Shown here: one piece after another, positions 5,647 through 5,835 of the stretch | How the letters are laid out: every line of letters begins with the position of its first letter | Numbering within the stretch: the stretch's first letter is position 1 | Program-made: the position numbers and the translations under genes | The notes under the pieces: model-generated | What the model was told of the DNA's origin: nothing | Seen by the model: the letters and a program-made list of their open reading frames with translations, nothing else | Database searches by the model: none | Origin: Clostridia bacterium | GTDB lineage: Bacteria; Bacillota_A; Clostridia; UBA1212; UBA1255 | Assembly: GCA_017522515.1 (NCBI GenBank) | Contig: JAFWZH010000205.1 | Span: 1 to 6,612 of the forward strand | Length of the DNA: 6,612 nucleotides | Direction of reading: 5' to 3'

Positions 5647-5664
5647 CTCTTGCTAAGAGACAAA
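5647..5664 (+). repeat. left inverted repeat of the predicted invertible segment
   Basis: CTCTTGCTAAGAGACAAA, a perfect 18-bp inverted copy of 5818-5835. The flanking bases make it a dyad by itself: GTCTCTT and AAGAGAC (7 bp each) around GCT (5645-5661), the arm-spacer-arm layout expected of a tyrosine recombinase core site. It lies 58 bp before the operon start, so after inversion its dyad would form a hairpin in the mRNA leader. Confidence 0.85.
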
Positions 5665-5779
5665 ACAGAAAACATTAGATATTGTATTTCAAGCGTATAA
5701 TTATAGAATCAATGTGTATTTGCTAAACAATTTGATATTATTTTCTTATGCCCGAAACTTTTTTCTTGGTAAATTAGCC

Positions 5780-5807
5780 TTTGATTGCGATATTTTGCGT
5801 AACTTTG
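5780..5807 (+). promoter_or_regulatory. promoter inside the invertible segment, pointing right (operon OFF)
   Basis: TAACTTTG at 5800-5807 is an exact Bacteroides -7 element. TTTG at 5780-5783 is the likely -33 element, with a 16-base gap that is shorter than the usual 19-21. Transcription would begin near 5813 and run into the 3' end of the recombinase on its antisense strand. Confidence 0.6.
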
Positions 5808-5817
5808 CAATTGGAAG

Positions 5818-5835
5818 TTTGTCTCTTAGCAAGAG
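5818..5835 (-). repeat. right inverted repeat of the predicted invertible segment
   Basis: TTTGTCTCTTAGCAAGAG on the + strand, the exact reverse complement of 5647-5664. The identity ends sharply at both edges. The inner dyad is less complete here: 5 of 7 arm bases match (CTCTT/AAGAG around AGC). It lies 21 bp beyond the stop codon of the recombinase gene. Confidence 0.85.

Follow-up and report, generated by a model that had tools for sequence, protein, structure and literature searches.

The question raised by this locus is whether the inverted repeat between a tyrosine recombinase gene and a five-gene operon forms an invertible promoter that switches the operon on and off, and in which state that promoter now lies. 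The window, meaning the whole stretch of 6,612 nucleotides that was analysed, contained the following features.

1940-2872, minus strand: g5, likely exported protein of 310 aa; TPR_1 at E 0.011, below the cut-off
2880-3752, minus strand: g4, likely exported DUF6175 protein of 290 aa (PF19672, 2.1e-80)
3757-4212, minus strand: g3, likely exported protein of 151 aa with no family match, overlapping g2 by 4 nt
4209-5045, minus strand: g2, likely exported LpoB/CsgG-like protein of 278 aa (PF13036, 4.3e-9; PF03783, 2.1e-7)
5049-5588, minus strand: g1, likely exported protein of 179 aa without a Pfam match; predicted fold of four long, bundled helices
5609-5641, minus strand: match to the DUF805b cis-regulatory RNA, within the leader of the operon (Rfam RF02914, 37.4 bits against a gathering score of 35.6, E 5.7e-8)
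5647-5664, strand not applicable: operon-side inverted-repeat arm, 18 nt, 100% complementary to its partner
5665-5817, 153 bp: candidate invertible segment, whose architecture is common to relatives
5800-5807, plus strand: TAACTTTG, Bacteroides-type -7 promoter element from a motif scan, pointing away from the operon
5818-5835, strand not applicable: recombinase-side inverted-repeat arm, 18 nt, with the core GTCTCTT-AGC-AAGAG at 5821-5835
5857-6612, minus strand: tyrosine recombinase, C-terminal 251 aa (PF13102 and PF00589), gene cut by the window end

The earlier note on this DNA had described perfect 18-bp repeats around 153 bp, placed between the recombinase gene and the operon, and both points were borne out: the two arms were 100% complementary over 18 nt, the whole element at 5647-5835 measured 189 bp, and the recombinase gene lay about 20 nt from the arm. 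In 300 Markov-shuffled windows the longest perfect inverted repeat with arms less than 1 kb apart was 15 nt, versus the 18 nt observed. Both arms contained the common core CTCTT-N3-AAGAG with an identical N3, and the operon-side arm together with its outer flank formed a 17-nt palindrome, GTCTCTT-GCT-AAGAGAC, at 5645-5661. No further copy of the arm was found elsewhere in the window at up to 3 mismatches (chance expectation 0.01), the exact arm had 0 matches in the IMG/VR viral contigs, and nothing in the plasmid and phage collections matched the window.

An exact TAnnTTTG element had likewise been placed inside the repeats, and it was located again as TAACTTTG on the plus strand, the sole TAnnTTTG on either strand within 4492-5860. 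Between its start and the outer arm edge lay 36 nt, and it faced out of the element. Since TAnnTTTG occurred in 24% of shuffled spacers, the motif alone is weak evidence. The Bacteroides -33 box usually lies 19-21 nt from the -7 element; the nearest TTTG was at 5780-5783, 16 nt upstream of TAACTTTG, and the -33 spacing was judged poor. Lying on the plus strand, the motif faces away from the minus-strand operon and toward the recombinase gene at its 3' end, so that the predicted state of the operon in the present sequence is OFF. The fixed leader (5589-5646) contained no TAnnTTTG on the operon strand, in agreement with the claim that it has no visible promoter. Two minus-strand TAnnTTTG motifs were present within g4, at 2969 and 3182, and could supply g5 from elsewhere.

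The recombinase had been called complete-looking, and this part of the earlier description failed, the frame leaving the window at 251 aa and the relatives being about 400 aa long. Among the relatives listed, the best 120 of 7999 scored, 119 were 397-424 aa and one was 264 aa in length, and numerous members of the same set were 91-96% identical to the recombinase of the window. The catalytic signature of tyrosine recombinases is R-K-H-R-H-Y. In the alignment with a XerC-like template, the K, the second R, the last H and the Y of the window recombinase aligned, and Ser was found at Arg I and Tyr at the His of HxxR, both of which we take to be catalytic positions; the same Ser and Tyr were present in most of the related recombinases compared.

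Comparison with relatives showed that the same kind of element recurred beside related recombinases. Among the 16 relatives at 61-73% identity with 420 bp readable downstream (L068, with 152 bp, and L077, with 51 bp, were excluded), an inverted-repeat element followed the recombinase in 12, and no adjacent element was found in the other four. The first arm began 23-46 nt past the end of the match in those 12, versus 25 of 2000 random windows taken from the same loci. The number of independent cases is smaller than 12, since the set includes L014-L016, which have one identical sequence, and the close copies L066/L198 and L067/L195. In all of the 12 except L070, an outward TAnnTTTG started at a distance of 35-43 nt from an arm's outer edge, the value in the window being 36 nt. 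It was directed toward the recombinase (OFF-like) in 8 and toward the target (ON-like) in three contigs, which shared one sequence and a second, deeper motif facing the opposite way. Many of the arms shared CTCTT-N3-AAGAG, from which those of L066, L069 and L070 departed; the two arms of one element had the same N3, but N3 varied from element to element, so that it may be what determines the pairing. The targets varied, comprising a restriction-modification system, an OmpA-like/fimbrillin-like cluster, UpxY-like/capsule genes and exported proteins, as named by reading of the sequences and, for Eco57I, by Pfam.

These comparisons bear on a non-inverting reading, according to which the repeats serve as a protein-binding site, an attenuator or a terminator and the operon promoter is fixed. 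The small palindrome in each arm, such as the 17-nt one on the operon side, could fold in RNA, and a known RNA motif is present within the leader, as such a reading would have it; the arms are nevertheless 153 nt apart, related elements keep a similar spacing despite differing arms, their promoter placement is near-constant with both directions found across them, and the fixed leader lacks TAnnTTTG. We consider this reading very improbable.

Two side observations on related recombinases were made in the course of this comparison. The IMG/VR contigs L013-L016, which are classed as viral, carried the recombinase and an adjacent switch, in the ON direction in L014-L016 and OFF-like in L013; the arm of L014 was found in 11 stretches of IMG/VR, and both arms occurred in 3 already known contigs alone, in one orientation. 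In Barnesiella sp. An55 (L114, 11186-19398), a relaxase, a 73%-identical recombinase, a switch in the OFF-like state and a restriction-modification gene of the Eco57I type stood in a row. This row ended about 6 kb short of the operon gene g1 and may represent a mobilisable island with phase-variable defence. The recombinase in this row, the closest one in An55, was 11 kb from the operon, and the row was absent from the 12 kb that precede the operon in the related genome G317.

The predicted target consisted of five minus-strand open reading frames separated by 3, -4, 4 and 7 nt, and the starts of all five resembled signal peptides ending in AQ or SQ, as judged by eye. Domains of the CsgG/LpoB type were detected in g2 by PF13036 and PF03783, and were suggested in g4 by a partial match of the predicted fold. 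The g4 model (pLDDT 71, pTM 0.54) matched FlgT-type flagellar rings, PelC, CsgG and LpoB in Foldseek, with a best E of 5e-6 and, among the matches listed, low TM scores by query length (0.19-0.33). The modelled fold of g1 retrieved nothing at E <= 0.001 in the structure search, g5 gave a weak TPR match against solved structures, and the profile comparison of g4 with g5 gave a probability of 21%, from which no relation is claimed. The resemblance of g2 and g4 to LpoB/CsgG/PelC suggests an outer-membrane apparatus, and the operon products may form an outer-membrane or periplasmic assembly. When one genome of each species was scanned, relatives of g2 were found in 12 loci, with titles naming Bacteroides, Barnesiella, Paraprevotella, Parabacteroides, Muribaculaceae, Prevotellaceae, Bacteroidales and Kaistella. 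All of g1-g5 were present in order at 11 of the 12, counting L011, in which g1 was partial and g4 was split over two frames; at L008, g3 was undetected and g1 lay 1.4 kb upstream. A search of IMG/VR with the LpoB protein returned nothing. A perfect 13-bp hairpin with a 5-nt loop was also present at 4988-5018, within the signal-peptide region of g2. Outside the operon, the plus strand encoded at 1-696 a protein of the Fic/DOC family that is truncated by the start of the window and ends in a winged helix. A plus-strand frame at 1640-1864 without a Pfam match looked, by eye, like the terminal part of a disrupted tyrosine integrase and may be left over from an old mobile element.

Switches upstream of the same operon were found in two genomes of Paraprevotella. 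The operon was preceded by 24-nt perfect arms in the OFF-like arrangement in G001 (L012), a MAG of this genus, and in G203 (L025), whose contig covered g1 to the start of g4, by 17-nt arms, also OFF-like; these two were the only ones with g1 among 18 Paraprevotella genomes. The g2 frame of L025 (666-1484) had one in-frame stop, so this copy may be decaying or misassembled. When the DNA upstream of g1 was compared in 30 distinct genomes, both arms and the inner motif were found in G001, G203 and G550, and a single arm with the promoter in the ON direction was found in G345. The other 26 had no core-bearing pair at 11-12 nt perfect arms, a screen that would overlook shorter or imperfect arm pairs. 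Other inverted repeats of at least 13 nt, upstream of g1 or close by, were present in four of these 26, namely L003 (18 nt, 49 bp span), L024 (17 nt, 94 bp span), L033 (25 nt, 78 bp span) and L122 (13 nt, 459 bp span), and were judged to be probably unrelated to the switch. In Barnesiella, whose operon was closest in sequence, a small gene that resembled a helix-turn-helix protein on reading of its sequence lay directly upstream instead of a switch. The idea that recombinase and operon travel together was rejected, as no recombinase relative was found at the 12 operon loci, for which the upstream DNA covered 0.9-1.9 kb in L002, L007 and L011 and 7.4-9.5 kb in the rest.

The enzyme that would invert the element may be considered against this background. 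The element could be inverted by a distant recombinase, alongside or instead of the neighbour, a reading that partly overlaps with inversion by the adjacent enzyme. No recombinase relative was present within the 20.8-kb operon-switch locus of G001, where the closest one stood alone elsewhere; since this enzyme is an orphan, the switch there would need action in trans. Four of the 16 recombinase relatives above were orphans too, and the B. fragilis recombinase Tsr19/BF2766 is reported to control a distant site (PMC4747536). Against this, the arm and the gene in the window are about 20 nt apart, and the tight arrangement is kept in 12 of the 16 relatives. Action of a distant enzyme on the window's element was considered unlikely, and that the neighbouring recombinase acts on these arms is what we infer.

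A comparison of related genomes for both orientations had been suggested as a check, and opposite orientations were found in two cases. The first was that of G550 and G345, two genomes with related g1-like genes and near-identical leaders. The 22 nt before the arm of G345, facing the gene, matched G550 at its far arm, in flipped form, at 20 of 22 positions, versus 7 of 22 at its near arm, and the best of 2000 shuffles reached 16. In G550 the promoter end was at the far arm and faced away from the gene, the leaders and genes staying in place. Without the promoter end, alignment of the two elements gave 29 flipped and 28 unflipped, with a shuffle maximum of 32. The second case was found in Bacteroides congonensis, in which the element adjoined a recombinase 68% identical to that of the window: relative to the target flank, the interior of the G827 element was reversed, with a score of 109 versus 36 unflipped, the maximum of 200 shuffles being 63. 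At about 2700-2895 of L154 in G827, a one-armed, apparently locked-ON promoter preceded a gene pair encoding an exported protein and an OmpA-like protein; the same pair was preceded in B. congonensis by a two-armed, OFF-like form. Segments of opposite orientation are thus found in G550/G345 and B. congonensis/G827, with the ON forms being one-armed; because G345 and G827 keep one arm, the far one having been lost, they speak for past reorientation and not for ongoing switching. That such locked forms lack the enzyme was rejected, as G345 and G827 each encode a 64-67% identical recombinase elsewhere.

A hint of present activity came from G001. Short-read assemblies break where both orientations coexist, and 6 of the 19 distinct sites in G001 with at most 1 mismatch to GTCTCTTNNNAAGAG were within 80 bp of a contig end, an indirect sign of live inversion in that population. 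The contig ends C1/C16 and C13/C25 had N3 in common, and the GTCTCTTNNNAAGAG pattern was about twofold more frequent than in the backward control (15+17 versus 9+9). Paired CTCTT-N3-AAGAG sites were also observed at C4:89035-89206 and C5:100736-100940, and further ones at the contig ends of C1, C13, C16, C19, C21 and C25; these extra sites appear to mark additional invertible promoters whose arms belong to the same family.

The element might also be a former switch that is now frozen OFF, in which case the operon would be silent or transcribed from another promoter. The three complete copies that precede the operon (the window, L012 and L025) were all OFF-like, one-armed forms occurred in G345 and G827, and the in-frame stop in g2 of L025 would suit such decay; however, the arms of the window were perfect over 18 nt, whereas drift is expected in a dead element, and the recombinase and the five operon frames were open as far as the window reaches. 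We regard a frozen element as improbable, and somewhat more so than the action of a distant enzyme.

In addition to the inverted repeat, the operon leader contained an RNA motif. The motif CCGAAAA-N-AGAGTAGG preceded g1 in the window, in L012 and L025, in G345 and, in two copies, in G550, and was confined to those g1 leaders among the loci examined (L023, L037, L038, L050 and L051 represent the place of L012 again, and L123 that of L120); the pattern occurred 0 to 3 times per genome in 7 whole genomes. With the DUF805b covariance model, both copies of G550 and that of G345 exceeded the cut-off, and the Paraprevotella leaders scored below the value of 35.6, with 27.5 bits for L012/L023 and 21.8 bits for L025. 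DUF805b was found in 262 of 393 Bacteroidales genomes, in 176 of which it was over the cut-off. The leader of the window resembles the Rfam family RF02914 in passing its gathering score, but it lies behind a predicted switch, unlike the top-scoring members elsewhere: an inverted repeat was present upstream of 0 of the 29 readable top-scoring loci, counted after L170 was dropped from 30 for want of a readable anchor, with L173 and L183 having less than 180 bp upstream. The proposal that DUF805b leaders generally lie behind switches was accordingly rejected. In a possible pairing of the loop (NCC) with the tail (GGN), the variable base pair was complementary in 32 of 34 DUF805b sequences, a count made without a shuffled control, and took the forms G-C, T-A, A-T and G-T, with A-T in the window. 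This complementarity is consistent with a pseudoknot in the DUF805b RNA.

Taken together, the architecture in relatives, the two Paraprevotella switches and the opposite orientations between genomes supported the proposal of the earlier note that an invertible promoter controls the operon. From these comparisons of sequence, we consider it highly probable that the 189-bp element is a promoter switch, likely flipped by the adjacent recombinase, with the operon OFF here. Recombination between the arms, at the core CTCTT-N3-AAGAG, would invert the 153-bp segment and place TAACTTTG just inside the operon-side arm, directed toward the operon. Transcription in the ON state would start just before this arm, and the transcript would cross the arm, which may form a 7-bp RNA hairpin, and then the DUF805b leader before entering g1-g5. 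Each cell would thus either express the operon or not, and in expressing cells a second control would come from the leader RNA. The inversion is presumably reversible, and TAACTTTG is probably the main promoter of the operon. More tentatively, and with rather less than even confidence, a two-layer gate, in which DNA inversion comes first and a DUF805b pseudoknot leader second, may govern a CsgG/PelC-like outer-membrane apparatus in several Bacteroidales lineages; our confidence was lowered because the Paraprevotella leaders fell below the DUF805b cut-off and g2 of L025 has a stop.

With flanking inverted repeats, an outward motif beside the target gene and a PF00589 gene about 20 nt away, the window element probably belongs, by its sequence, to the known class of recombinase-linked invertible promoters of Bacteroidales. 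The closest described arrangement that we found was that of B. fragilis Tsr19/BF2766 beside IVp-I (PMC4747536), in which, as in the window, one tyrosine recombinase adjoins the invertible promoter of a surface-related cluster. According to that report, the local promoter is mostly OFF in culture, the enzyme also acts on a distant promoter, and the switches control an operon for extracellular polysaccharide and a seven-gene cluster of membrane proteins, whereas the target in the window is an LpoB/CsgG-DUF6175 operon with a DUF805b leader; this likeness is one of description, and not of enzyme sequence, arms or the seven-gene cluster. The invertons of hCom2 Bacteroidota, grouped by arm sequence in the main text of PMC11892184, resemble the window in having a Bacteroides promoter motif inside the invertible region, and their invertase adjoins in an orientation in which the inverted promoter cannot drive it. 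That main text contains no CsgG, DUF, Barnesiella, Paraprevotella, AAGAG or CTCTT, and the arm groups of that study could include the one in the window. The invertible promoters that precede resistance genes in Bacteroidales were predominantly OFF in 92 of 96 cases (PMC8748976); they differ in having other cargo and in being derived from capsule loci with upxY.

Phase variation in Bacteroidales, as far as the accessible sources describe it, mainly targets capsules, extracellular polysaccharide, SusC/SusD, fimbriae, restriction systems and resistance genes. Neither an LpoB/CsgG-DUF6175 target nor a DUF805b leader behind a switch was found in the open-licence literature, where an entry in a supplementary table is possible, and within these sources the DUF805b leader between the switch and g1 and the LpoB/CsgG-DUF6175 operon as a target appear to be new. 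In the window, the switch is predicted to act on a conserved operon whose five products are likely exported, one of them having LpoB/CsgG-type domains. If cells keep such an operon off part of the time, this suggests that what it encodes is costly or exposed, or that phages or hosts recognise it. If the two-layer gate is true, the flip would set the all-or-none choice and the RNA would tune the output of ON cells, and the CsgG/PelC-like apparatus under its control would be a previously undescribed one. The recurring switch with its DUF805b-type leader also provides a context in which the function of this RNA family may be tested.
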